From positions 124,001-188,000 of the forward strand of contig PMEM01000004.1 in assembly GCA_003155795.1 (NCBI GenBank): DNA of 64,000 nt. The letters are read 5' to 3'. The notes beneath the pieces are model-generated. The model searched no databases and was not told the origin of the DNA. It saw nothing but the letters and a program-made list of their open reading frames with translations. This DNA is from Gemmatimonadota bacterium (GTDB taxonomy: Bacteria > Gemmatimonadota > Gemmatimonadetes > Gemmatimonadales > Gemmatimonadaceae). Below, in pieces: positions 25 to 57,413 of this stretch (positions within the stretch are counted from its first letter, which is position 1; every line of letters begins with the position of its first letter). The translations under genes were made by a program, and so were the position numbers.

Positions 25-36
25 GCGCGGGTGCAT
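25..36 (+). promoter_or_regulatory. Motif 1 (GCGCGGGTGCAT), putative promoter core
   Basis: This is an exact copy of the window-wide 12-bp element. It ends 33 nt before the start of the cytosine methyltransferase gene at 70. Confidence 0.7.
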
Positions 37-5002: not shown

Positions 5003-5040
5003 TTGGGCACGGTTAGAACGCTGTAGTCGAATGCGATAGA

Positions 5041-5076
5041 GCGCGCGGTGTTGGTCTGCCGCGCGCTTTTGCTTTT
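5041..5076 (+). terminator. Rho-independent terminator
   Basis: A perfect 8-bp stem GCGCGCGG/CCGCGCGC (5041-5048 with 5059-5066) is followed by TTTTGCTTTT. This is the clearest intrinsic terminator in the window, ending the lipoprotein transcript. Confidence 0.85.
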
Positions 5077-5084
5077 GGTGGATC

Positions 5085-5096
5085 CCGCGGGTGCAT
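5085..5096 (+). promoter_or_regulatory. Motif 1 (CCGCGGGTGCAT)
   Basis: The element lies just after the terminator and ends 41 nt before the gene at 5138. Confidence 0.7.
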
Positions 5097-6984: not shown

Positions 6985-6996
6985 GCGCGGGCGCAT
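6985..6996 (+). promoter_or_regulatory. Motif 1 (GCGCGGGCGCAT)
   Basis: The element ends 20 nt before the methyltransferase start at 7017, one of the shorter gaps. Confidence 0.65.
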
Positions 6997-19738: not shown

Positions 19739-20754
19739 TTCAGCCTTCTTTGGAGGGAGTTGCAACCAGCTTCAAGTTGGTCAGCGGCGACGGGGCAGCG
19801 GTGGCGCTGGCGCGCACACTCCTCTCGCTTGGCATTGCCAAGCCGGCGGATTGGGGAAACTGCGGCAAATCGGCAAACACGTTCGTGGACCGTACGTTCA
19901 CAAATCTGTTTGACGACCACGGGGGACCGTCGATCGCGGAAGTATTCGGCTTAAGCGGTTCGCTCAGCTTTAGCATGAGCGATCTGCCGACCACAAATGA
20001 ACCAAACGAGAAACTCCCCGTCACCGATCGTCCTTGTTACCTGTCGATATATCCGGTATCCGCTGCATTCGTTGAGCTTGGGCCAACGCTCGATCGATTT
20101 GAGAAGATCGACCCACGACTCGCTGCGACGTTTTACCACACTCTCATGGAAGTTCTGTACCGTGTCGGGCGACCGTTCGGTTACGACGACGCTTGTGAAT
20201 ATCGCGAGATGGTAATGGAGGGGATCGATCCCGAGGATACGGAGCAATATGAGATTCCCGACCCGTCGACGTGTCGCCGTCCGGCGTACACTGCGAAACC
20301 ATACAAAGTAGCTCAGGCTAAATCCGAACTACGTCGCTGCAAGGACCGGGAAGCGGCTGGCTGGCTCCAAACGGCGCTTGCGATTCCAGGAGGCCGTCAG
20401 AAGTGCTTCCTTGGCATTGCCCCGGAAGATTTAGAGTACAACTTCGAAGGGGAAACCGTACCGTGCGCGCTAATCGTGAATACCGAAGGCGACGGCATCC
20501 AGGCGTGCTTTGACGCTCAATCAGAGCATTGGGGGGAATACACGGGTGCACCTATGTTTCTCGCGGAGTTTAAGCCGGGAGAGCGGCGCAAGGTTGCACA
20601 GGTAGTTGCGGCCTACACGGATACGCTCGACATACTGCACGGCGTGAGCGCACTTCTCAAAGTACTGCCGGGCGCTGACTACACGCCACGTACGGAGCGC
20701 GACGACCGGACGATGCGCGCCGGACTGCGAGATTTCACTGAGGAGTACGGATGA
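19717..20754 (+). CDS. PRTRC system protein F
   Basis: The 345-residue protein resembles PRTRC F: a block YLSIYPVSAAFVELGPTLDRFEKIDPRLAATFYHTL (about residues 105-140) followed by a YDDACEYREMV segment, and the position directly before protein B. ATG 19717 gives a small overlap with the upstream gene; ATG 19612 is a longer alternative. The stop overlaps the start of protein B (ATGA), as expected of a coupled cassette. Confidence 0.75.
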   Translation: MAPAGGLVQPSLEGVATSFKLVSGDGAAVALARTLLSLGIAKPADWGNCGKSANTFVDRTFTNLFDDHGGPSIAEVFGLSGSLSFSMSDLPTTNEPNEKLPVTDRPCYLSIYPVSAAFVELGPTLDRFEKIDPRLAATFYHTLMEVLYRVGRPFGYDDACEYREMVMEGIDPEDTEQYEIPDPSTCRRPAYTAKPYKVAQAKSELRRCKDREAAGWLQTALAIPGGRQKCFLGIAPEDLEYNFEGETVPCALIVNTEGDGIQACFDAQSEHWGEYTGAPMFLAEFKPGERRKVAQVVAAYTDTLDILHGVSALLKVLPGADYTPRTERDDRTMRAGLRDFTEEYG

Positions 20755-21464
20755 TTCATACCGATCTTGGACAACAGCGTCAATACAAACTGCAGAACGT
20801 CGTTTGCCTTTACGGGGATGGATCACAAGCGTTTGCCACGCTACATGAGGTTGACCACCCGTTCAACGGCCAGGGACAGCCAAAGCTCCGCCCAGCACAG
20901 GCGTTGACTACTGCATTTCTTCACGGCCTGCAGGATCAGCTCGGGGTGCGACAGTCGGTCGAGATATTCACCGAGCAAGTACTCGCACGGACACCGGAAA
21001 TGGTTGCTTGGTACGTTCCAGCCGCACACCGGGCGATGTTCTTCAAGACTGGCGGGACTCCACTCGACGCGTACAGCGGTAAGCGATTCCCACATCCCGG
21101 CCTGGTGTTCAAGCTCGCGAACAACATTCTCTCCGTACGAGCTGTGGCGACGAACGTTCGCCCAAGTGCTGCTACGAAGCTCTTTGCAGCCCCGTACTAC
21201 AACATCTACGCGAATGGCTCAGTCTGCACAGGATCAATGCGGACCCCAGACCGCTCAACTGTGGATGTGTTGGACGCGTGGGTGGCAGGCTTCTTTGCGA
21301 GCGCATTCAGCCATGTGGCCGGCGTCGTGAAGGTCACGACCGTGAAGGGCGGATACCCTGCACTCGTCAAGCTGATCGCCGGAAGCAAGTTTGCCTTTCC
21401 TGTGCGAACTCTGGTTGATGTGCGGCAGTCGTTAACGGAATTCCTACGCGATGGTGACTTATGA
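20751..21464 (+). CDS. PRTRC system protein B
   Basis: The 237-residue protein carries the PRTRC B hallmark WYVPAAHRAMFFKTGG (about 83-98), then FPHPGLVFKLANN and the strongly conserved APYYNIYANGSVCTGSM (about 146-162). It is coupled to protein F by ATGA overlap and is followed by motif 1 and the ThiF gene. Molecular role is unknown. Confidence 0.85.
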   Translation: MIHTDLGQQRQYKLQNVVCLYGDGSQAFATLHEVDHPFNGQGQPKLRPAQALTTAFLHGLQDQLGVRQSVEIFTEQVLARTPEMVAWYVPAAHRAMFFKTGGTPLDAYSGKRFPHPGLVFKLANNILSVRAVATNVRPSAATKLFAAPYYNIYANGSVCTGSMRTPDRSTVDVLDAWVAGFFASAFSHVAGVVKVTTVKGGYPALVKLIAGSKFAFPVRTLVDVRQSLTEFLRDGDL

Positions 21465-21465
21465 T

Positions 21466-21477
21466 CCGCGGGTGCAT
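21466..21477 (+). promoter_or_regulatory. Motif 1 (CCGCGGGTGCAT)
   Basis: The element begins one base after the stop of PRTRC B and ends 37 nt before the ThiF start at 21515. Confidence 0.65.
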
Positions 21478-21514
21478 GTCGAACTATCCCTTCCATACTT
21501 GCACTTGATCTCCA

Positions 21515-22297
21515 ATGCCCAAGATCCCAAAGCCATCACCAGCGCTTGAACATCAACTCGCTCCGCATCTTCTCGAGAAATCGATCAGCGTACTGGTTGT
21601 TGGGTGCGGTGGAACAGGGACTGCGATCGCGTCGGGTCTCATCCATTTACACAAGAGCCTACTCGCATACGGTCACCCGCATGGACTTCAAGTAACGTTG
21701 GCAGATGGGGATACGATTTCTCCGACCAACGTAGTGCGCCAACCATTCAGCGAATCAGAGATTGGACTTTATAAGTCTGAAGTCCTTGCCTCTAGGTACA
21801 ATCTGTTTTGGGGCGTCGAGTGGGAAGCTGTAACACGGCATCTGTCGAAGGGCGACAATATCTCGGCCGACATTGTGATCGGATGCGTCGATACGCGGCG
21901 CAGCCGACGCCTGATTCAGCAAGCAACCTCGAAGCACAGCGACACCACGTATTGGCTCGACCTGGGCAACAACGCAGCATCCGGTCAGTTCGTTCTCGGC
22001 CAGCCCTTAAATGCCCGGACGAAGGATATGGCTTGCCGCCTGCCGACCGTCGCGGAGTTGTACCCGGAAACCGTGGATGCCAAGCGAGATAAGGGCGATA
22101 CTCTCCCCTCGTGTAGCTCGCTGGAGGCTTTAGAGCGTCAGGAGCCGTTCGTCAACCAGACGCTCGCATTCAGCGCCCTTGCACTACTCGCCCGATTGTT
22201 CAGGTACGGTCGGATTTCGTACCATGTTGCTCTGATTGACTTTGCTGCAGGAGCAACGGGATACCGCTCAATTCCGAGCACTCAGGAGGCTGCATGA
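21515..22297 (+). CDS. PRTRC system ThiF-family protein
   Basis: This is an E1-like/ThiF adenylyltransferase fold protein of 260 residues. The nucleotide-binding loop VVGCGGTGTAIASG lies at about 27-40. It is followed by the PRTRC-typical LLAYGHPHGLQVTLADGD, SPTNVVRQPF with the Arg of the adenylate site, and a Cys-containing C-terminal segment. ThiF proteins activate carboxyl groups of ubiquitin-like proteins; no such partner is evident. Overlaps the next gene by ATGA. Confidence 0.88.
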   Translation: MPKIPKPSPALEHQLAPHLLEKSISVLVVGCGGTGTAIASGLIHLHKSLLAYGHPHGLQVTLADGDTISPTNVVRQPFSESEIGLYKSEVLASRYNLFWGVEWEAVTRHLSKGDNISADIVIGCVDTRRSRRLIQQATSKHSDTTYWLDLGNNAASGQFVLGQPLNARTKDMACRLPTVAELYPETVDAKRDKGDTLPSCSSLEALERQEPFVNQTLAFSALALLARLFRYGRISYHVALIDFAAGATGYRSIPSTQEAA

Positions 22298-22512
22298 ATC
22301 CGTTCTACACTTACGTTCGCGAGAGTGGTGAAACAGTGGATTTCACCAGGACGCACGATGGGGTTGCCGTCACGATTGATGGTGACGAGTCTCGTGTGAT
22401 TCCGGTACGCCAAGATGCGAACGTCGAACGTCGCTCGATGGACGTTGCAATCGCGTACGAGGTCTCGGACCGGGAGTCCTACCAGAAGGTCATCGCAAGC
22501 AACGGGTATTGA
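22294..22512 (+). CDS. Small PRTRC-associated hypothetical protein (72 aa)
   Basis: The start overlaps the stop of the ThiF gene. The short beta-rich sequence (GETVDFTRTHDGVAVTIDGD) ends in GY. Since ThiF enzymes act on small beta-grasp proteins, a 72-residue coupled partner is worth noting, but the C-terminus is not a GG, and the idea is only positional. Confidence 0.55.
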   Translation: MNPFYTYVRESGETVDFTRTHDGVAVTIDGDESRVIPVRQDANVERRSMDVAIAYEVSDRESYQKVIASNGY

Positions 22513-22575
22513 TCGCGCTGTAGTAAGAGGACCATTCTGGGGCCGTCTTTAATGTCGGCCGTTCGTGTTGAGTGC

Positions 22576-22587
22576 GCGCGGGTGCAT
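22576..22587 (+). promoter_or_regulatory. Motif 1 (GCGCGGGTGCAT)
   Basis: An exact consensus copy ends 31 nt before the start at 22619; an AGGAGG box lies in between. Confidence 0.7.
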
Positions 22588-22618
22588 AGCAATACGAACC
22601 CTTTCCCAGGAGGTTGGT

Positions 22619-22915
22619 ATGCGTTTGCTGTCCTCTCATGGCGTTGTGCTCGCTGCTGTAGCTGCTATTTGCGTCACGGCAGTTCATCCCGACTCTGACG
22701 GGCCTGCTACGCCAGTCACTCACCAGGCGGGATCTCTGAATCTCCCGCTCGCGGCCCCGAGATATTCGCTCCCGATCTTCAACGATCGGGACTCGACACG
22801 ACCCCCGACACCCAAGCGAATCAATCGGCCTCGCACGAGGGTAACGCCGGCGAGAGCGACCAGGATCCGGAGAGCTCCGGCCTATGGAGACCGGTCAGCA
22901 CGCGCGTTCCAGTAA
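22619..22915 (+). CDS. Putative exported small protein (98 aa)
   Basis: The N-terminus has a signal-like hydrophobic stretch (VVLAAVAAICVTAV at residues 8-21) after MRLLSSH. The rest is Pro/Arg/Thr-rich and likely disordered and basic. AGGAGG precedes the ATG. No family is recognised; secretion and anchoring cannot be told apart. Confidence 0.55.
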   Translation: MRLLSSHGVVLAAVAAICVTAVHPDSDGPATPVTHQAGSLNLPLAAPRYSLPIFNDRDSTRPPTPKRINRPRTRVTPARATRIRRAPAYGDRSARAFQ

Positions 22916-23009
22916 TTGTCGCCAGGGGTTTCGAGGTGGCGCGGGCTCATATCCCACGCGCCGCCTCGAGCGTGCTTCTCAGAACGTCCCTCAAGGGAGA
23001 GTCCGAGCA

Positions 23010-23333
23010 ATGCCAATCAATCCGTTCATTTCGGTGACAGTTCTGGTCTTTATTCCGTTGCTCGCTCTTGCGACATGCGGGAGCGTGGTGGTGTGCATGA
23101 AGGCCGTCGCTGGTCGTGTATGGGATTCGGCTGCATTCGCGGGATTCTGCTCGGCATTTCTCCTTTCCCTCACCTTTGCTACCGCGGTCCAATGCAAGGT
23201 CGCCTACGAGGAGCAAGCGCCGCACATAGCTCCGATATCGGAGACGAGTGCCGCCAGTCTCGCCAAACGACCGATGATCATTGCGTTCGCGATCTGCAAC
23301 GAACAGGGATTTAGCTGTCGTTCTGGAGAGTAA
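23010..23333 (+). CDS. Two-TM membrane protein (107 aa)
   Basis: Two hydrophobic segments are visible at about residues 6-28 (VTVLVFIPLLALATCGSVVV) and 40-62 (FAGFCSAFLLSLTFATA), followed by a polar tail with three Cys. AGGGAGA lies about nine bases upstream. Cotranscribed with the exported-protein gene. Function is unknown. Confidence 0.6.
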   Translation: MPINPFISVTVLVFIPLLALATCGSVVVCMKAVAGRVWDSAAFAGFCSAFLLSLTFATAVQCKVAYEEQAPHIAPISETSAASLAKRPMIIAFAICNEQGFSCRSGE

Positions 23334-23436
23334 TGAGCAACCGTAGCAAAAACGGGCAGGGCGGTCGGTGATTGTGGAGACTTCCATTGCACCAATGGTA
23401 CGCCAATGCCCGAACAAATAGACATTCGGCACCCTC

Positions 23437-23448
23437 GCGCGGGTGCAT
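23437..23448 (+). promoter_or_regulatory. Motif 1 (GCGCGGGTGCAT)
   Basis: An exact consensus copy ends 60 nt before the clamp gene at 23509. Confidence 0.7.
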
Positions 23449-23508
23449 TACCACGCATCACTGATTGCCGAACGTCGGCATGACTCACTCTGTTTGAGGG
23501 CTTCACCA

Positions 23509-24744
23509 ATGGCTACCGCAACCGCTTCCGCGTCGTCAACCGTTACACTCACCAAGTCGGCGCTGCTCGCTGGCCTTTCGCGCGTTGCTGGCGCGATTGT
23601 CAGCAAGACTACACTTCCTGTGCTGACCAACGTTCTTCTCGCTCCAGGCGAGAACGGTATGCTTCGCCTCGTCGCAAGTGATCTTGACGTAACCGTGCAG
23701 ACGGTCGTCAACGCGTCGATCTCCGGCGACGGGAAGGGCGTTACTCTCCCAGGCAAGAAGTTCTCCGAGTTCGTAAAAGAGTGCGCCGACGCACCGATAA
23801 CGATCATGGTTCAGGGTGACACGCGCGCGACGGTCAAGGCTGGCGCTGCACGGATGAAGTTGACCGGCATTGCCGCCGATGAATTTCCGGACGTTGCTGG
23901 ACAGATCGCTGAGGCTGTTGACCTGTTCACGATTCCGGCTGGTACGCTCATGGCGCTCGCCAAGCTAGTTGCGTCATGCGTCAGTACAGAGGAGAGCCGC
24001 CCGATTCTGAACGGTGTTCTGTTCGAGATTGGCAAGGCGGAAGGCTCGGGTGCCGACGCCAAGCGCACCGTTCGTATGGTCGCGACAAATGGGCATCGTC
24101 TGGGCGTCTCGGAAACAACGCTCACCGGGGATCAGGCTGGTGCGGTTAACCCTGATGCGGTTGAGCTGATTCTGACCTCTAAGGTTCTCGGTTTGGTGGC
24201 GGCTGTGTTCACGGGTGACGAGTCCGTGGCCATCGCAACCACGCCGGACAAGCATGCGATCGTTATCAAGGGCGCTACCACAACGCTCTCCGCTCGGATC
24301 ATCGAAGGACCGTATCCGAACTACCGTCAGGTATTGCCGGAAGGCTTCTCGGTCGTTGTCGTGGCTGACCGCCCGGCCATCATGCAGACAGTCAAGCGGG
24401 TGAACGTCATCGCTTCGGATCAGACGCACCGCGTGGCCTTCCGTGTCGCTGGCGCCAACGCAGAGGCAAGCGTTTGCATCAGTGCGGAAACTCCGGATAT
24501 GGGCGAGGCCGAGGATTCAACACCGATTCGTATCGAGTCGGGTGCCGTCGAGGGCGAGGATGGGTTTCGCATCGGATTCAACGCCGCTTACCTGCTGGAC
24601 CTGCTCAAACTCACGCCGGGCGAGGAGGTTCGTATCTCGCTCCTTTCTCCCGAGCGAGCGACACGAATCGAGCCGGTCTACGGTGCGGAGAAGCCGGACG
24701 TCACGAGCTTCCACGTTCTGATGCCATTGCGTCTGATGGATTAG
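23509..24744 (+). CDS. dnaN: DNA polymerase III sliding clamp (beta subunit)
   Basis: The 411-residue protein is a full-length three-domain beta clamp. Diagnostic parts are KTTLPVLTNVLLAPG near 33 and ASDLDVTVQT near 60. The second domain has EESRPILNGVLFE near 165 and ATNGHRLGVSE near 200; the third has EGPYPNYRQVLP near 270. The C-terminus MPLRLMD corresponds to the canonical MPMRL. A clamp on a mobile element lets it recruit host polymerase independently of host DnaN supply, or with altered partner choice. It is transcribed alone from motif 1. Confidence 0.95.
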   Translation: MATATASASSTVTLTKSALLAGLSRVAGAIVSKTTLPVLTNVLLAPGENGMLRLVASDLDVTVQTVVNASISGDGKGVTLPGKKFSEFVKECADAPITIMVQGDTRATVKAGAARMKLTGIAADEFPDVAGQIAEAVDLFTIPAGTLMALAKLVASCVSTEESRPILNGVLFEIGKAEGSGADAKRTVRMVATNGHRLGVSETTLTGDQAGAVNPDAVELILTSKVLGLVAAVFTGDESVAIATTPDKHAIVIKGATTTLSARIIEGPYPNYRQVLPEGFSVVVVADRPAIMQTVKRVNVIASDQTHRVAFRVAGANAEASVCISAETPDMGEAEDSTPIRIESGAVEGEDGFRIGFNAAYLLDLLKLTPGEEVRISLLSPERATRIEPVYGAEKPDVTSFHVLMPLRLMD

Positions 24745-32062: not shown

Positions 32063-32445
32063 CGGACCCAGTGCGCAAGCGAACACTCAAGTGGCGCGAC
32101 GGCCACGATAGAACTCCACTCGATGCAACATCTGAGGCGGAGCTCGTCGCTGTGATGCGCAAGCGATCACACTACGCCAACGTTGCGGACGACGCGGGAT
32201 ACATGCACGCGGTTGCGCGGCGCTTCCGTGAACTGGACGGAGTTACCGTTCGTTCCGACAGTCCTGCCAACTTTGTCGAGGATCTCGTCGCGGTCGGACA
32301 CATCGAAGCGGTATGGGTTGATGAAACCGGTGGCGAGACGCGCATTACGCCCGACGGATACAGACTCTCGCGCCTTCGCGCCAGCGGCATCCCTGTTCTG
32401 GATTCAGAGGATATGGATGCCGGGACACATGGTGGTGCCGTATGA
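32059..32445 (+). CDS. Hypothetical protein in amidoligase operon (128 aa)
   Basis: I recognise no family. The first 20 residues are basic (RKRTLKWRDGHDR). The remainder resembles a small winged-helix-like fold (AGYMHAVARRFRELDGVTV; IEAVWVDETGGETRITPDGYRL). It overlaps both neighbours by four bases (ATGA), which places it firmly in the operon. It could be a carrier or regulator. Confidence 0.6.
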   Translation: MTDPVRKRTLKWRDGHDRTPLDATSEAELVAVMRKRSHYANVADDAGYMHAVARRFRELDGVTVRSDSPANFVEDLVAVGHIEAVWVDETGGETRITPDGYRLSRLRASGIPVLDSEDMDAGTHGGAV

Positions 32446-34028
32446 CTGCGCCGATGTTCCCGACATCTTCAGCGGGATGGCTCGTCAACGGGACCGTTGA
32501 TCCTGCACTCGCGGAAAGACTTGATCATTCCGCTCTTGTTGCTTCAATGCGGAGCGTTATTGAACGGCCCGGCGGTTTCGCACCCGACGAGCGTCGCGCA
32601 GTTGCGCAGGTAATTCGTGCGCAGGGACGGTTCGCTGCCAGTGGGTTGATTACCCCACCCGCAGAGAACACTTTCGCGCCGTATCAGTTTTCGCCGGTAC
32701 TCAACGATCCTGCTGCATGCGAACGGATCGCAGTTGCGATCGAGCGTGGTCATGTAAATGATCTCGAGATTGTGAATGCTGTCCTCGCCTTTCCGCGTGC
32801 GGTAGCAGCTACCGACGCATTGACTGAGTCAGTTCGCATCCAGTTAGTACGGGACGCGCTGGGTGAGTCGCTGATAAGCGATGCGACCTTGGACGAGTTC
32901 GACGACATTGGCGCCGTCCCTCCGATCACGCCTGATCCCACTCCTTCGCGCGCAACGATCGTCCGTGAAGCATACGCGGCCGCCGTGAAGGCAGCGACTC
33001 AGGATCGGGAGTCAGTCGCGCCCTACGTTGGGGACTCTGCGATGAGCCACCGCACATTTGGGGTCGAACTCGAAGGGTTCTTGTACGGTGGTGAGCCTTT
33101 GGACCTGCAGGCGCGTCGCGCGCGACGGGAACTCGACGCCGCGGGCCTCCTCGAGTGGGGGGTTGGTGTTGACTCGACAGTGATTGACGATTCGCGCCAG
33201 GAGCGGACTGGACTTGAGGTAAGGTCGCCAGTGCTTCGGGGTGACGATGGATTGGCCGAGTGCATCCGTGCGGTCCAGGCATTGAGTCGCGCGGGATTCG
33301 TGACCAACGATTCGTGTGGGATCCATGTACACATCGGGGTCACGTCTGAGTCGTTGGCTGAAATGAAGACCATGGCCGCGACACTGACCGCGCAGGAGCT
33401 GAGTCTTGATGCTTTCACCACTCCACAACGGAGAGGCGAGGGTAGCCGGTATGCGATGCCAGCCGGAGTGACGCGCGAATACATCGGCGTATCCGAGCGT
33501 GGGAAGACGTTGATGGGACCAACCCCGGATATCACGCCGGAGAGTCTTGGAGATCGGTTGGTTGCGGCGCAGACGTTCCGCGGCGTCTTGGACACTCTCA
33601 ACGTGAACGGTGACGAAACCCGTTTCCACAAGATCAATTACCGCTCGATTATGAAGCGTGGTACGGTGGAGTTCAGAGGCCGCGACGCATATCTGTCCAC
33701 ACCGCAGGAATTGTCTGACTACATCCGCCTCTGCGATAGGCTGGTGGACCGCGCGATGGATGGAGAATGTGTCCTGCCGGTTCAGCGCGAGCGGTTTGCA
33801 GCTTTCGCTGGAGCAATCACTCTCGCTCGTGCGGCAGCGTATCCAGGTGCTGCAACCGATTCCGTCCGCGTAGCTGACAGCGGGTCGTCAATGACGGATG
33901 CCTTAGCACGTTTGGCGAACGCGAGAGTCCATGACATAGCGAAGTTGCCTATCCCGGCATCACTGGTTGTCCTGGATAACGGGAAGGATGGAGAAGTAGA
34001 AATCCACCCTCCGCAGGCAGGACGGTAA
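32442..34028 (+). CDS. Amidoligase-family enzyme (glutamine-synthetase-like fold)
   Basis: The 528-residue protein carries the amidoligase-family core from about residue 200. It has FGVELEG at 206-212 with two acidic metal/ATP ligands, GIHVHIG at 293-299, and GTVEFR at 407-412, the equivalents of the glutamine-synthetase-type active-site strands. Family members join amino groups to gamma-glutamyl-type carboxylates and often occur beside AIG2-like cyclotransferases, as here. About 200 N-terminal residues are of unknown type. Confidence 0.75.
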   Translation: MTAPMFPTSSAGWLVNGTVDPALAERLDHSALVASMRSVIERPGGFAPDERRAVAQVIRAQGRFAASGLITPPAENTFAPYQFSPVLNDPAACERIAVAIERGHVNDLEIVNAVLAFPRAVAATDALTESVRIQLVRDALGESLISDATLDEFDDIGAVPPITPDPTPSRATIVREAYAAAVKAATQDRESVAPYVGDSAMSHRTFGVELEGFLYGGEPLDLQARRARRELDAAGLLEWGVGVDSTVIDDSRQERTGLEVRSPVLRGDDGLAECIRAVQALSRAGFVTNDSCGIHVHIGVTSESLAEMKTMAATLTAQELSLDAFTTPQRRGEGSRYAMPAGVTREYIGVSERGKTLMGPTPDITPESLGDRLVAAQTFRGVLDTLNVNGDETRFHKINYRSIMKRGTVEFRGRDAYLSTPQELSDYIRLCDRLVDRAMDGECVLPVQRERFAAFAGAITLARAAAYPGAATDSVRVADSGSSMTDALARLANARVHDIAKLPIPASLVVLDNGKDGEVEIHPPQAGR

Positions 34029-34072: not shown

Positions 34073-34084
34073 GCGCGGGTGCAT
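34073..34084 (+). promoter_or_regulatory. Motif 1 (GCGCGGGTGCAT)
   Basis: An exact consensus copy ends 44 nt before the Gp157 gene at 34129. Confidence 0.7.
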
Positions 34085-34128
34085 TCCTTCACATCTGATA
34101 CTGTTTCCCTTTCACAGGATGTGAAGCA

Positions 34129-34779
34129 ATGCCAACGATTTTCTCTCTCGCTGATTTCCAGAGCGACATCGACGTAGCACTTATTGAGAGTTGCGGCGAT
34201 GTCACGCCCGCAATACAGGCAATGCTCGACGTCCATGAGAAGTTGGAGTCGGACAAGATCGATGCGTATGGGATCGTGTACCGCGACCACATGGACAGGG
34301 CAGCATCGTGCAGGAAATTGGCCGAGGAGTTAGAGGCTCGTGCTAAACAGCATGAGGCAACAGCCGATGGTCGCCGCCGACTGATGCAGTGGTACATGGA
34401 GCGTCGCGGTATGCGCGAACTCTCCGGCTCCTTTGCGCGATTCTCGATTGCAAAGAACGGCGGTAACCAAAAAATCGAGTTGAAAGTCCCGGAGGCCGAT
34501 GTCCCCGACTCGTTTCGGAAGCCACTTCCAGCGCAGCCGACGCGGGGTGATGTGGATACCAACGCGATCCGCGCGGCTATCGCCGCTGGAAGCGAGGAAG
34601 CCGCTGCAATTGCGATACTTCTTCCGCGTACTGAACGCGTAGATATTTCTTTCGGCCCACGGAAGCGCAATGCTGAAAAGCCGGAGGTCGCAGTCAACCT
34701 TTCGGTGCTCGACGGTCAGGTTGGCCCCACTGTTGAGCCAGTAGCGGAACCATCCGTTGCTGAACCGATCGCAGCGTAG
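34129..34779 (+). CDS. Siphovirus Gp157-family protein
   Basis: The 216-residue protein follows the Gp157 pattern. There is an N-terminal coiled coil with repeated ExxxKxxxY spacing (about 30-90). A beta segment follows: GSFARFSIAKNGGNQKIELKV, then ADVPDSFRKP and a TNAIRAAIAAG helix. The family comes from phages and has been linked to phage resistance. A Pro/Val/Glu-rich tail is extra. An AGGATG-type site lies upstream. Confidence 0.75.
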   Translation: MPTIFSLADFQSDIDVALIESCGDVTPAIQAMLDVHEKLESDKIDAYGIVYRDHMDRAASCRKLAEELEARAKQHEATADGRRRLMQWYMERRGMRELSGSFARFSIAKNGGNQKIELKVPEADVPDSFRKPLPAQPTRGDVDTNAIRAAIAAGSEEAAAIAILLPRTERVDISFGPRKRNAEKPEVAVNLSVLDGQVGPTVEPVAEPSVAEPIAA

Positions 34780-37884: not shown

Positions 37885-37896
37885 GCGCGAGCGCAT
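37885..37896 (+). promoter_or_regulatory. Motif 1 (GCGCGAGCGCAT)
   Basis: The element ends 35 nt before the gene at 37932. Confidence 0.65.
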
Positions 37897-37931
37897 TTCG
37901 GAGCAGTTCCACCTCTCAATACGAGGCTCCG

Positions 37932-38513
37932 ATGCGCAGTAACCCAGCCGATCAGACTCCCCCCACCACACCGAAGCGAACAAGCCCACCGGTTGACCCC
38001 AAAGGCCGTGTGAAGCTCACAGCTTACCACGAACACAAGGGACTCTCGGAAGAGACTATTGCGTTCGACTGTTCAATCACGCTCGACGGAAAGAAAGTGG
38101 CAGCCGCCACGAACACTGGCCAAGGTGGACCGAATCGGTACCATTTCTTTTCGCGGGATGCAGAGGCAACGGTTACGCGTCTCGCCGCTGAGTGGGCGCG
38201 CGATACAGGTCGCCGAACGTTCGAGACGCTCGATGCGTTTCTCAGCTACATCTCCACCGGGATGTCTGATCAGAAGATCGCGCGTTCGTTGTTCAGACGC
38301 GCATCCAAGGTTGATCCGGCCTATGCCGGAGTCGTCGTTGTGGAGAAGGATCCGCTAACACTCACGCGCCCAGAGGGCGGTGACGTGATCGTCGACTTTC
38401 TCGCCCACGAATACATCCTCGTGCGGAGCATCGACGATGTGACGACTCTCGCAGTGGCGAAGGGTGCTGGGGCATGGTGCTTCCATGTGCTTCCTGCTGA
38501 AACCCTCAAATAA
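37932..38513 (+). CDS. Hypothetical mobile-element protein (193 aa)
   Basis: The pattern LTAYHEHKGLSEETIAFDCSITLDGKKVAAATNTGQGGPNRYHF, cited here by its parts, is familiar from phage and plasmid proteins of unknown function: a short strand, then a GLSEE turn and a GxGGPN loop. The C-terminal half ends in a beta hairpin. No enzymatic motif is seen. Confidence 0.6.
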   Translation: MRSNPADQTPPTTPKRTSPPVDPKGRVKLTAYHEHKGLSEETIAFDCSITLDGKKVAAATNTGQGGPNRYHFFSRDAEATVTRLAAEWARDTGRRTFETLDAFLSYISTGMSDQKIARSLFRRASKVDPAYAGVVVVEKDPLTLTRPEGGDVIVDFLAHEYILVRSIDDVTTLAVAKGAGAWCFHVLPAETLK

Positions 38514-41941: not shown

Positions 41942-41953
41942 GCGCAGGTGCAG
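41942..41953 (+). promoter_or_regulatory. Motif 1 (GCGCAGGTGCAG)
   Basis: The copy ends in CAG and lies 72 nt before the nrdJ start at 42026. Confidence 0.5.
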
Positions 41954-42025
41954 TGGGCAGTATCCAATAGGACGCCCTTGTTTCGACGGCGTTCACCGAC
42001 TGCTTCCCGCTTGAGGATTGTAGCA

Positions 42026-42709
42026 ATGACCACCACCATGCCCCAGATCAATACCAGCCATTTCAGCAATGTCGATATCGGTCTTCCTGCTGCCACGCTG
42101 TCTTCAAATGCACTCACCGTGCTCAAGAAGCGTTATCTCATGAAAGACGCTGAGGGTAACCCGACCGAGCGGCCCGAGGACATGTTCAGCCGCGTTGCAA
42201 CAACCCTGGCTGACGTCGGTATTCGGTATGGCGAGTCGAGGAAGGACGTGCGGGATCTTGCACGCCGATTCTACGATCTGATGACCAGCGGGCGGTTCGA
42301 ACCCAATTCCCCGACACTCATGAATGCAGGGCGGCCGCTAGGCCAGCTCTCGGCCTGCTTCGTTCTCCCGGTTGAGGACTCACTGTCCAACGGGCACGAC
42401 GGCATCTACGACTCGCTTCGTGCCTGCGCGCTGATTCACCAGAGCGGCGGAGGAACGGGGATGAGCTTCTCCAGACTCCGCCCGAAAGGCGCGACGGTCA
42501 GGAGCACTACTGGCGTGGCGAGCGGTCCTGTCAGCTTCATGGAGCTCTACGATGCTTCAACCAATGCGGTAAAGCAGGGTGGGGACGCGTCGCGGTGCCA
42601 ACATGGGCGTCCTCCGGATCGATCATCCAGACGTGATGGAGTTCATCACGTGCAAGGAGGATCTGTCCAAGATCACGAATTTCAACATCTCACTCGCGAT
42701 CACCGATGA
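42026..42709 (+). CDS. nrdJ: Adenosylcobalamin-dependent ribonucleotide reductase, N-terminal part (frameshifted)
   Basis: This encodes the N-terminal region of a class II reductase: [25 protein letters not shown], with a conserved Cys of the reducing pair, and [19 protein letters not shown]. The in-frame sequence is normal up to KQGG (about residue 186) and then runs into a spurious tail ending at 42709. One extra G in the GGGG run at 42581-42584 explains the shift; the true continuation is in the next reading frame. Confidence 0.85.
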
Positions 42710-44552
42710 GTTCATGCTCGCCGTGCGCGAGGGCACAGACTACGCGCTTTACGATCCCAAGTCGAAGGCCGAGGTCGGCCGCCTGGATGCGCGGACCGTA
42801 TGGGAGAAGATGATCGATGGCGCATGGCGCACTGGTGAGCCTGGCTGCTTGTTCATCGACGAAGCGAATCGCTACAACCCAGTTCCACATCTCGGCGATT
42901 ACGAGGCGAGCAACCCGTGTGGCGAGCAGTTTTTGCTGCCGTACGACGTCTGTAATCTCGGATCGATCAACATCGGTGCGTATGTAATCGAGGGTGAACT
43001 TGGCGTTCCAACATTGGATTGGGATGCTCTCCGTGAGGATATCCACGTCGCCGTCCACTTCCTCGATAACGTCATCGACGCAAACAAGTTCCCGCTCCCA
43101 GAGATCGAGACACTGGCGAAGCGGATCCGTCGCATCGGCCTTGGCCTGATGGGGTTCGCCGATGCACTGATCAAGCTCGGAATTCCCTACAACAGCACTG
43201 AGGGAGTAGGGTTCGGTCGAGAGTTGCAGGCATTCATAGACGAGGAGGCCAAGATTGCGAGCGAAATCCTGGCTGAGACTCGTGGCACGTTCCCGGAGTG
43301 GGCGCGTTCTATATGGGGTCCGGACGAGACGTGCGCGCGTGACACAGACGGCGATCGCATCCGTCCGATGCGTAGGCTTCGCAACTGTAACGTGACGACC
43401 GTAGCACCGACTGGGACGATCTCCATAATCGCAGGATGCTCATCGGGCATCGAGCCGCTGTTCGCTGTTGCGTTCATGCGCAATCAGGCCGACACAAAGA
43501 TGGCCGACGTCAACGAAGATTTCGTCCGCGTTGCGAAGGAGGAAGGCTGGTACACTCCCGAGCTGATGGCTAGGATTGCCCGGGCAGGACATATTCATTT
43601 CGCCGAAGTTCCGGAGAACTGGCAGCGTGTATTCGTCACTGCTCATGACATCACGCCTGAATGGCACGTGCGCATGCAGGCGGCGTTTCAGGAACGCTGT
43701 GATAGCTCGATTAGCAAGACTACAAATTTTCCCCGGTCAACTACACGCGACGACGTTCGCGCCATTTACGAACTCGCACACGAGCTAAAGTGCAAGGGCG
43801 TAACTGTCTACCGGGATGGTTCGCGAGAGAACCAAGTCCTCTCAACGGGCGCAACAACGCACGCTGAGGATAGCGGGACCGTTGATCCCAACACGGCAGA
43901 GTTGAAGGCAGCGTTGGCCGAGTCCAAGATTGAGGTCGAACGCCTTACGGGCAAACTGCTCGCTGCTGAGTCGGAGCACGCGGTCATCCGAAGCAAGCGT
44001 GAACGCCCAGGCTTGCTGCGTGGTACAACGATTCGGAAGGAGACGCCTCTTGGAACGATGTTCGTTAACATCACCGAGGACGATAAGGGCAACCCATTCG
44101 AAGTCTTCATCAATCTCGGGAAGGCGGGTGGCGCAGCAATGGCTGATGCCGAAGCAATGGGACGTATGATTTCGCTCGCGTTGCGGTCAGGTATACCTCT
44201 GCGTGAGGTGCACCAGCAGCTCCGCGGTATCAGCTCTGACCGTGCGGTAGGATTCGGCCCGCACAAAGTGCTCTCTGTTCCCGACGCGATTGGAATCGCG
44301 ATTGAGGAATGGCTTAAGTCGAGAGACGGCGTCCAGCAGGAACTCCTTACAGCAGATACTCCGAGCGGTGACGCTGCCGTAGTGGCCGCCCTCATATCAG
44401 AGAAGGCCCCGGCCCTTTTCGATCATTTCGCCGAGCGGACTCGTAGTGACTATGGACGCCCGTGTCCAGATTGCTTGCTACCAAACTCTGTCATCGAGAG
44501 TTCTGGGTGTGAGCATTGCACCGCACCGGGTTGCGGCTACTCGGCGTGTTAA
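42579..44552 (+). CDS. nrdJ: Adenosylcobalamin-dependent ribonucleotide reductase, catalytic part (frameshifted)
   Basis: The second fragment continues as [16 protein letters not shown] and carries the class II active site [22 protein letters not shown] plus [24 protein letters not shown]. The C-terminal half holds a TSCPD-type domain ([23 protein letters not shown]) and a Cys-rich tail (CPDC, CEHC) for re-reduction. Together the fragments make a full-length enzyme converting ribonucleotides to deoxyribonucleotides without oxygen, using B12. The apparent start is a GTG only by coincidence with the frameshift. Confidence 0.85.
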
Positions 44553-44971: not shown

Positions 44972-44983
44972 GCGCGGGTGCAT
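44972..44983 (+). promoter_or_regulatory. Motif 1 (GCGCGGGTGCAT), leaderless position
   Basis: An exact consensus copy ends 9 nt before the ATG at 44993 without a ribosome-binding site. Confidence 0.7.
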
Positions 44984-52278: not shown

Positions 52279-52290
52279 GCGCAGGTGCAT
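52279..52290 (+). promoter_or_regulatory. Motif 1 (GCGCAGGTGCAT)
   Basis: The element ends 45 nt before the sigma-like gene at 52336, which would make that gene autoregulated if its product reads motif 1. Confidence 0.65.
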
Positions 52291-52335
52291 ACGGCAGCAA
52301 CGACCCATTTCGGGTCGATCTGTCGGAGAATCATC

Positions 52336-53610
52336 ATGTCCCGCTTAACTAGTCCTGCCCCCTCGATCTTTCAGTCGTCCAACTTCGCTTCCGCCGCCGG
52401 CGACGTACATCCCATGTACGGGCTCATTCGACGTCACGGGCGACTCCCGGCAAAGGATTTTGTTGCCTTGGTGGGCACCTTCCGTACTGGCGTGAGCGAT
52501 GACGTGATATCGGAGCAATTGCTCGCGACTTACGTTCCGCTCCTCTCGGCGATGGTCCAGAGGAAAAGTCCGAAGGGTGACGCTGGTCTTCAGTTCCGGG
52601 AAGGAGCCGTTCCAGCCGCGATTGCGGCCTTCTTCGAGGCGATCGGGGATTCGAGTATCCCGCTCGCGCCCCGTGCGCTTCTCAAGGAAATCAATTCACG
52701 TGTAACGAGGGCACTCGAGCAGGAATTACTCTCGGCTGAGCACGCCCTCGTTGTCTCCGCTCAATCCGCCTGGCGAGCTGGGAACGTCATTCGAACCGCT
52801 GGCGCTGTGTCCAACGCCGACGTTGACTGGCTCACACGGGATGAGGTCTACGCGATACTCGGCGATTCAATCCGCGTTGAGAGTATTCATCTGGTCCAGA
52901 ATTCCAAGTTCGCCCTCGCTCTTGGATCAAGCTCTGGGAGCAGACGAGCAGAATTGGGCGAAGAGATGGTTACTGCTGAATCGATTCCAAACTTACGGGA
53001 GGAGACAACAGGTGCCGCGGCAGTAGCTGCCGAACGACTCGCGCGTGCCTTGGCGACCTTGCCGGCGGCGGATGCCCGCATGCTTGTGGACGCCCATGGT
53101 CTCTTCGGTCGGAAACCAATTCTCGCAGCCGACGTTGCCGCGGAGCTCGATGTTCACCCGTCGACTTACAGGCGTATACTAAACCGTGCTGAGGCACTCC
53201 TCCGGAGTGAGCTGATAGCTCAAGATTCGCCTGACCTGGGAGGGGTTGATGGTACCGGTGGTGCTCCGGTTCGAGGCGCTTGGTGCTCGGCGAACAGCTC
53301 ACTTATGCGCAAAGGCTACCGAACTGAGCTTGAGCCAGGGATGGTCCGCTACGCCCGACACGTTGCTGGTGCAGTGCGGTGTTTCGCTGAGCACGAGGGG
53401 TGGAATCCGAAAGAGACTGAAGCAGCGGTTCGGAGGCTCGTTTCCTTCCGTACAGGCCGGACTGACGCATCCGATCACCCGTTGACCCTACAGATTGTGG
53501 ACAGCCTGACGACATTTGCGCAGTCCTCGGCCGGTGGCACTGGTCGTTCGGCAGCCGAACCACCATCAGTGGCCACAGTAGAATCATCATTCGCAGAGTC
53601 CGCTGCGTAA
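52336..53610 (+). CDS. Divergent sigma-factor-like protein
   Basis: The 424-residue protein has the arrangement of a sigma-70-family factor. A sigma2-like helical region spans about 55-120 (LLATYVPLLSAMVQRKSP, FREGAVPAAIAAFFEAI). A variable middle follows. The sigma4-like module begins at LPAADARMLVDAHGL (residue 242) and continues with a helix-turn-helix, ADVAAELDVHPSTYRRILNRAEALLR (about 264-290). A further 130 residues follow. Similarity is by layout, not strong identity, and some canonical core-binding residues are not obvious. CGGAG lies before the ATG. It is the natural candidate to recognise motif 1. Confidence 0.6.
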   Translation: MSRLTSPAPSIFQSSNFASAAGDVHPMYGLIRRHGRLPAKDFVALVGTFRTGVSDDVISEQLLATYVPLLSAMVQRKSPKGDAGLQFREGAVPAAIAAFFEAIGDSSIPLAPRALLKEINSRVTRALEQELLSAEHALVVSAQSAWRAGNVIRTAGAVSNADVDWLTRDEVYAILGDSIRVESIHLVQNSKFALALGSSSGSRRAELGEEMVTAESIPNLREETTGAAAVAAERLARALATLPAADARMLVDAHGLFGRKPILAADVAAELDVHPSTYRRILNRAEALLRSELIAQDSPDLGGVDGTGGAPVRGAWCSANSSLMRKGYRTELEPGMVRYARHVAGAVRCFAEHEGWNPKETEAAVRRLVSFRTGRTDASDHPLTLQIVDSLTTFAQSSAGGTGRSAAEPPSVATVESSFAESAA

Positions 53611-56010: not shown

Positions 56011-56022
56011 GCGCTGGTGCAT
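56011..56022 (+). promoter_or_regulatory. Motif 1 (GCGCTGGTGCAT), leaderless position
   Basis: The element ends 8 nt before the ATG at 56031 without a ribosome-binding site. Confidence 0.65.
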
Positions 56023-56030
56023 GAGAGATT

Positions 56031-57413
56031 ATGCTCTCACATCAGAATCCGATCACTAGGATTGTCAGTCCCGCAGGCGACGGGCCTACAAGGTCATTCT
56101 CCGAACGTGCGGAGGATCTGCTCGACCGGTTGCTAATTGCGGATTACGATACTGGCACGAGTACGGCATGGGCTGGTGCAGCGCCCTGGCACCTGTGTTC
56201 GGCGTTCAAGCCGACATTCAATCAGCTCGCGTTCGATCTTTTTCCCTCGCTCGATCCCAGCGACTTGAGCTGCGATCCCGATCACGCCGTCTTCATAAAG
56301 AGTGGGTTCAGCGTTCGCTTGATCGAGGGGAAAGGGAAAGCCACTGTGCTGGACGAATTTGTATCGCGTCATCATCACTCCCTCCGGGGTGGCGGGATGA
56401 GTGGCCGAGCTTACGGGCTGTATGATCCAACCGCCGCTCTCGTTGGTCTCATTATCTTCGCGAGACCGACGAATGCAAAGACTGCTGCAGGGATGCAGGT
56501 CGTAGAAATAGGCGACGACCTACTCTCGCCAACCGAGCTGGCGCATGTTACGCACGGAGAAGGCGAGACATTGGATTGCACACGACTTTGTGTTGCTGAT
56601 GTGACGCCATCTGGGTTCATTTTAGGTACTGGAGCAGAGTCGTTCCTGTTTGCAGCGGGGCTGCGTGATCTCGCAAGTCGAAACCGGTCTCTCTGGAGAG
56701 CGACCCGCATGGTAGAGAAGGGGATTCCGCTTACGCCGGACACGCGCCGGATCCTTGCCAGCGTTTCAAGTTGTAAATGTGTTCGCTCTTTTGCGACTGT
56801 CGGGACGCGAGGGGTCTCCTATGCCGCGTCTGGGCTTTTCTATTGCGGCAGAGGGCGGTCCGAACAGGAATCAGTTGGCAGACGATCGGGGGAAGTTTGC
56901 GGACGCAGGTCGCTCTCGAAGCTCGAAAGCCTGCACTGTCACGGACATGACCATCAAGTGCTCCGCGCTGTTTGGGAGGGCGGCGAAGGCTGCGTGACCG
57001 CTTTCGACTCGAGAGGAAACGTGATCACATCAATCGACCTATCGCCGATTCGCGCGATGGTAGGTGATGATCTCACACCTCTCGTCCGTCAGCGCGCACT
57101 CAAGCGTGCGTACCGCGAACTCCGAGCTGATGCAGAGCGCGGAATTGCGCGAGTGGATATTACGTGGAGTCTCAGTGCGGATAGGGCGGGCTATGTATTG
57201 CGGCATGCGAGCCCGAAGCATCGGTACGTCGGCTACTTGGGCGCCCCGTACTACGTCGTAGAGATGGCGCGGCGGTCAAAGTATCTCCGGGACAGTATCC
57301 TGGCTGCCGAGCGTGCTTGGTTCGCGCCTGAGCGACGCTGGCCGCGTGGGATTGGCTTCGGTTGGAAGCGCCCCCCACAGAGACTTGGGATTCCTCCGAT
57401 GCCGAGATCCTAG
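56031..57413 (+). CDS. Mom-like GNAT-fold protein, putative DNA modification enzyme
   Basis: The 460-residue protein contains, at about 105-150, VLDEFVSRHHHSLRGGGMSGRAYGLYDPTAALVGLIIFARP (in parts). This is followed near 180 by LDCTRLCVADVTP and ESFLFAAGLRDLASR, and near 245 by VRSFATVGTRGVSYAASGLFYCGRG. The order HHxH..G, LVGxxxF, (E/C)xxRL, fxA..LR.L, SxA....G..Y.ASG..Y.G is that of Mom-type acyltransferases, which modify adenine in phage Mu DNA. The long N- and C-terminal extensions are unusual, so the assignment is tentative. Confidence 0.5.
   Translation: MLSHQNPITRIVSPAGDGPTRSFSERAEDLLDRLLIADYDTGTSTAWAGAAPWHLCSAFKPTFNQLAFDLFPSLDPSDLSCDPDHAVFIKSGFSVRLIEGKGKATVLDEFVSRHHHSLRGGGMSGRAYGLYDPTAALVGLIIFARPTNAKTAAGMQVVEIGDDLLSPTELAHVTHGEGETLDCTRLCVADVTPSGFILGTGAESFLFAAGLRDLASRNRSLWRATRMVEKGIPLTPDTRRILASVSSCKCVRSFATVGTRGVSYAASGLFYCGRGRSEQESVGRRSGEVCGRRSLSKLESLHCHGHDHQVLRAVWEGGEGCVTAFDSRGNVITSIDLSPIRAMVGDDLTPLVRQRALKRAYRELRADAERGIARVDITWSLSADRAGYVLRHASPKHRYVGYLGAPYYVVEMARRSKYLRDSILAAERAWFAPERRWPRGIGFGWKRPPQRLGIPPMPRS

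Follow-up and report, generated by a model that had tools for sequence, protein, structure and literature searches.

Sigma-70 factors bind core polymerase and recognize the −10 element through region 2, and their region 4 contains a helix-turn-helix (HTH) that recognizes the −35 element and binds the flap. In the SigO-RsoA system of Bacillus subtilis, regions 2 and 4 are located on separate proteins (PMC10141391). In cluster K mycobacteriophages, a short repeat, the 13-bp SAS, is present at many translation starts, almost always in the same orientation, about half of the copies with an inverted repeat; the inverted repeats of the ESAS have a conserved sequence and precede the SAS (PMC3203893). 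In the Com/mom system of phage Mu, the site adjoins a hairpin that holds the start codon and is opened by a factor (PMC6483171). Finally, the Frpo/ssi promoters of conjugative leading regions have a same-strand layout among methylase, SSB and anti-restriction genes (PMC11541004).

Here, we analyze P0001, a very divergent protein for which sequence comparisons support one sigma4-like DNA-binding domain, together with a repeated motif that precedes its gene and dozens of others. The gene is located on C14 (PMEM01000004.1; 196,270 bp), one of the 71 contigs that make up a 3.98-Mb Gemmatimonadota genome; bases 124001–188000 of C14 are the stretch analyzed, 64,000 nucleotides in all, and are referred to as the window (Table 1). 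The left half of C14 encodes TrbI, DnaG, ParA, ParB, a secretin and T2SSE/F proteins. The window half encodes DNA methylases, an ArdC-thymidylate kinase fusion, a sliding clamp, ribonucleotide reductase, an RPA-type replication initiator, a Mom-like protein, RadC and PRTRC-type proteins, and SSB, a serine recombinase and a ddrB-ParB protein are encoded just beyond it. Based on these conjugation and plasmid functions and on the T4SS coupling proteins (Table 1), C14 is a conjugative-type element, plasmid or integrated, in a soil Gemmatimonadota host. The 21 kb around the P0001 gene are 100% identical in PLEG01000388.1 (52,379 bp) of the MAG "Gemmatimonadetes bacterium palsa_1236", and by the coordinates of PLEG01000388.1 the two contigs terminate at the same base. 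The large chain of the ribonucleotide reductase seems to be split over two overlapping frames (window 41948–42709 and 42579–44552), through a frameshift, whether programmed or not, or an assembly error. Amidoligase, prokaryotic ubiquitin, E2-like and ThiF proteins are also encoded on the element (window 32442–34028 and the PRTRC-type genes).

Table 1. Features of the P0001 locus, of the repeated motif and of contig C14. Coordinates are window positions unless preceded by C14.
Feature	Coordinates	Strand	Remarks
P0001 CDS (sigma4-like protein, 424 aa)	52336..53610	+	reading frame open
SD-like GGAG	52325..52328	+	7 nt ahead of P0001 ATG; from sequence
Sigma4-like domain of P0001, residues ~205–295	52948..53220	+	sigma-factor matches, shuffles, domain model
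P0001 C-terminal extension, residues 296–424	53221..53607	+	without family match
P0001 motif copy CGCAGGTGCAT	52280..52290	+	PWM 21.1 bits; 45 nt before ATG
Conserved Y-A (C-A at P0001)	52298..52299	+	8 nt past motif
P0001 leader inverted repeat CGGCAG (52292–52297)/CTGTCG (52320–52325)	52292..52325	+	nested hairpin CGACCC/GGGTCG
Motif before C5 DNA methylase gene (31–1581 as called)	26..36	+	23.5 bits; ATG 44 nt past motif start
Motif 16 nt past strong terminator-like hairpin	5086..5096	+	hairpin 5038–5069, T-rich tail
Motif, then perfect hairpin GAGAGT/ACTCTC, then ATG (N6 methylase gene)	6986..6996	+	hairpin span to 7015
Motif before DNA polymerase sliding clamp gene (Pfam)	23438..23448	+	25.3 bits
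Motif, then 9-bp hairpin CTTCACATC/GATGTGAAG, then ATG	34074..34084	+	span 34074–34130
Motif, then 7-bp hairpin up to ATG	37886..37896	+	span 37886–37932
Motif with ATG 20 nt past its start (N4/N6 methylase gene)	44973..44983	+	
Motif with ATG exactly at conserved A (Mom-like gene 56031–57413)	56012..56022	+	
Strong window motifs (start positions)	26, 1643, 2235, 2831, 3159, 3988, 4756, 5086, 6321, 6986, 8450, 8831, 9671, 10355, 11285, 11692, 14623, 15184, 15762, 16593, 17801, 18842, 19462, 21467, 22577, 23438, 24809, 25697, 27760, 28528, 34074, 35658, 37886, 39801, 41943, 44973, 52280, 56012, 58603, 60714		
Second sigma-like protein	C14:194334-195119 (locus L017:6334-7119)	−	Sigma70_r2 E 8.7e-9; weak r4
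Third sigma-like protein	C14:18142-19713 (locus L010)	+	weak sigma2 and sigma4 similarity
T4SS coupling proteins	C14:116652-120095 and 20500-24150		

The original prediction held that P0001 is a divergent sigma-like protein with a sigma2-like and a sigma4-like block, about 130 extra C-terminal residues and its own copy of the repeated motif. The gene is real, as its frame is open over 424 aa and preceded by an SD-like GGAG, and the extra residues (295–424) indeed form an extension without a family match. The motif copy 45 nt upstream is equally real, and because this copy is strong, the P0001 gene belongs to the motif regulon. Copies of P0001 were found in the source genome and in the identical contig of palsa_1236 only, and no relatives were found in viral contigs, phages or plasmids. 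Pfam and PHROGs returned only sub-threshold HTH or sigma matches.

The sigma4-like block is supported by matched sigma factors and by shuffling. P0001 has seven non-self matches among 179 genomes of the family. All seven are sigma-70 factors, with at least three kinds represented, and each spans region 4 around P0001 residues 232–291. These matches score 245–401 bits against the host sigma-factor profile, which confirms their sigma identity, and the alignment extends past the HTH into region 4.1 in the same register across several sigma kinds. An earlier sigma profile (E 1.7e-5; 0 of 2000 shuffles) was set aside because it was partly built from proteins found with P0001; given this circularity, the test was repeated with region-4 and region-2 profiles from three host sigma factors that were picked by Pfam without P0001, and with shuffles that preserve composition. 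P0001 scored 7.1 bits against the host region-4 profile and 1 of 3000 shuffles scored equally well or better, a permutation count that, like all P-values here, applies within one element lineage, with no independent relative in the searched collections. Moreover, full-length P0001 ranked first among the 190 C14 proteins with the host sigma4 profile. With the independent profiles, sigma4 thus stayed positive, although more weakly than with the first profile, and sigma2 was negative. In absolute terms, the sigma4 assignment is weak because P0001 is missed both by Pfam Sigma70_r4 at E 10 and, at E 1, by a profile built over the full length of the certified host sigma factors, three in number; the signal is seen with primary-sigma sequences or profiles only. 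The predicted structure of full-length P0001 is uninformative (pLDDT 38). A model of residues 196–300 alone has four helices (pLDDT 68), and a Foldseek search of the PDB with it gave no significant match and many weak matches to sigma region 4 chains.

The sigma2-like block, by contrast, was not borne out. Pfam Sigma70_r2, run on the whole genome at E 10, did not report the P0001 locus, and 355 of 3000 shuffles matched the host sigma2 profile as well as P0001 did. In the profile tests, neither region 2 nor region 3 of sigma-70 was detectable.

The prediction had further argued that an element carrying tens of copies of one unusual promoter needs a factor to read it. Tens of copies do exist: in C14:120-196 kb (~76 kb, to the contig end), 49 plus-strand but only 2 minus-strand sites reach at least 11 bits with the PWM, and no minus-strand site in the element region reaches 12 bits. 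The consensus is CGCRRGYGCAT-N7-YA. In a set of 63 sites, which takes in those of the window and of a second contig, C52, the A is present in 45 and a T follows in 37; an ATG-initiated ORF follows 50 of the 63, placing the motif upstream of genes in one orientation. Variation across sites is mostly G/A and C/T. Between −60 and +70, logos and k-mer tests showed no second conserved box apart from the A/T at +19/+20, and the motif lacks two boxes 15–19 nt apart as in a sigma-dependent promoter. In window 1–40000, sigma-70 promoter-like pairs are rarer than in shuffles, and Rfam gave no match. The upstream 6-mer TAACTG exceeded the shuffle maximum, but its positions are scattered and it was dropped.

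Downstream of the motif, the leaders share pairing. When positions 11–19 of each site were tested against the site's own downstream stretch and against the downstream stretches of the other sites, own-leader pairing reached 12.5 versus 10.8 (z 6.0; 0 of 2000 permutations). The same test gave no signal for windows inside the motif, ahead of it or further down. The left arm covers positions 12–19 and the right arm positions 30–52, just before the ATG (z up to 5.9), with the signal fading beyond and the stretch between the arms poor in G. Arm sequences change from copy to copy, and pairing is common to the set, which is consistent with selection on pairing itself. Pairing of the motif's CAT with the start codon was marginal (mean 0.28 versus 0.23 ± 0.02 in shuffled leaders; C after ATG p 0.09) and was rejected as a candidate.

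Because a start-proximal hairpin follows the motif, part of the motif may act in RNA, where the reader would not be a sigma factor, and the leader pairing fits an RNA leader. In three genes, the first ATG is at the conserved A or one base further, and structured sequence lies within 60 nt upstream of several motifs. The conserved Y-A, the ATGs at or next to this A, and the upstream structure or terminator would fit a promoter. A transcription start at the conserved A would fit as well, and the left arm would then fall outside the RNA. The pairing of the arms as a set points to a promoter-plus-leader or a translation-start module.

Contig C52 of the same genome has ~17 motif copies, nearly all on the plus strand, and no P0001 homologue was found on it. 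On paper, C52 is the kind of relative that the original prediction named as evidence against P0001 as the reader, one with the motif and without the gene. However, parts of C52 are also present in the second MAG, so that the two bins with C14 both contain sequence of C52, and P0001 could act in trans. Further motif arrays were not seen in 395 genomes of the phylum; in viral contigs, the motif is found at 20 loci, where additional PWM hits are only scattered and do not form an array before genes. Sequences corresponding to C14:9750-13759 and C52:95376-100757 are adjacent in another species of the genus (G041:C3:504869-514278; 93–94% identity), and thus the two contigs may belong to a single element. 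The motif-bearing region of C52 spans 28000–60000, and the contig also has genes for lanthipeptide biosynthesis and SNF2, UvrD and RecJ-type proteins.

P0001 had also been singled out as the only sigma-like protein encoded in the window. This is correct inside the window, but two further sigma-like genes are present elsewhere on C14, which weakens the argument built on it. The protein encoded by C14:194334-195119 has a clear sigma region 2; its gene lies just beyond the window on the strand opposite to P0001 and, distant sigma matches aside, is present only in the two element-carrying genomes of four in the genus. The gene at C14:18142-19713 adjoins a T2SSE-type ATPase gene. The PWM scan found no motif copy before either gene.

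In the explanation that we favor, at about even odds, P0001 is a very divergent sigma-70-superfamily regulator of a conjugative-type element, with the motif as a promoter/leader or translation-start module. P0001 would, via its sigma4-like domain, bind DNA and/or the RNA polymerase flap, and may thereby tune the expression of the element, including that of its own gene. It would either have a sigma2 region changed beyond recognition or work with another sigma factor, a possible partner being either of the further sigma-like proteins encoded on C14. The module would consist of a fixed block of 11 nt, the conserved A 8 nt downstream and a leader whose first arm is complementary to the bases immediately ahead of the start codon. 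Rather than a two-box sigma promoter, it would be either a translation-start element or a promoter core joined to a structured leader. A more ambitious proposal, in which the 11-nt block, the conserved A and a hairpin of freely varying sequence that ends at the start codon form a private expression code and P0001, with or without a sigma2-bearing partner, switches on most establishment genes, is decidedly unlikely. P0001 is best filed as a sigma4-like element regulator that belongs to the motif regulon and is one of several candidate readers.

It is quite possible, if somewhat short of an even chance, that another factor reads the motif and that P0001 is just one of the regulated genes. This factor could be one of the other sigma-like proteins, the ribosome, or a small RNA or RNA-binding protein that targets the leader. 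Leader pairing near the start codon and the predominance of G/A and C/T changes in the motif are as expected in this case, and C14:194334-195119, with its clear sigma2 and its restriction to the two element-carrying genomes (distant sigma matches aside), would be a candidate reader; however, neither it nor the third sigma-like gene has a motif copy in the PWM scan. An arrangement in which P0001 supplies region 4 and this protein supplies region 2, as in SigO-RsoA of B. subtilis, would be highly improbable. The strengths of the two are complementary, a clear sigma2 and a weak sigma4 in the one and sigma4 only in the other, and such an arrangement is known (PMC10141391), but the genes are ~17 kb apart on opposite strands, C14:194334-195119 has a weak sigma4 of its own, and its pairing with P0001 is conjectural.

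The original prediction itself, that P0001 is a complete private sigma factor which joins the host core polymerase and initiates transcription at each motif copy, including that of its own gene in a positive feedback, appears unlikely. The sigma4-like domain and the strong motif copy before the gene argue for it, as do the conserved Y-A 8 nt past the block, with the first ATG of three genes at that A or one base further, as in leaderless starts. So do the terminator-like hairpin before one motif and the structured DNA upstream of several, so that transcription may restart at the motif. Against this, sigma2, the expected reader of a −10-like block, is not detectable in P0001, the motif has no second conserved box up- or downstream, the block is G+C-rich in contrast to known −10 elements, C52 has the motif without the gene, and the leader pairing is left unexplained. 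Rather unlikely, finally, is that P0001 lies outside the sigma family altogether, as a generic HTH protein whose sigma4 likeness is convergent or results from alanine-rich composition. Its best Pfam matches are to general HTH domains below cut-off, three further phylum-wide matches (L019–L021) are off-centre from the sigma4-like region and are not among the verified sigma factors, and no structure match is significant; however, the matches extend into region 4.1 in the same register in several sigma kinds, and the shuffle control keeps composition.

If P0001 or another element protein reads the motif, the system would show how a conjugative element insulates a large gene set from host control and activates it jointly once it has entered. 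Whatever its reader, the motif-plus-hairpin module deserves notice: block and pairing recur in dozens of copies whose arm sequences differ, making the module directly testable with reporters, and the leader inverted repeats of changing sequence are possibly the more interesting finding.

Compared with known systems, P0001 resembles sigma-70 region 4 in that residues ~205–295 align with primary-type sigma factors of Gemmatimonadota, including region 4.1 before the HTH; it differs from the sigma-70 family by having no detectable region 2 or 3 and a 130-residue C-terminal extension, and by falling below the Pfam region-4 threshold. In contrast to SigO-RsoA, a long distance separates the gene for P0001 from that for the region 2-bearing protein, and a joint action of the two is conjectural. 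Like SAS/ESAS, the element motif recurs at translation starts and is accompanied by inverted repeats; however, its arms vary from copy to copy and sit downstream of the motif. The leader pairing would suit an RNA leader of the Mu mom type, except that Mu has one such gene and the element has dozens, and that no Com-like protein was identified. While the logo shows no −35/−10 boxes in a fold-back stem and the conserved block lies outside the hairpin arms, the motif shares with the Frpo/ssi promoters a same-strand layout in a region with methylase, SSB and anti-restriction genes.
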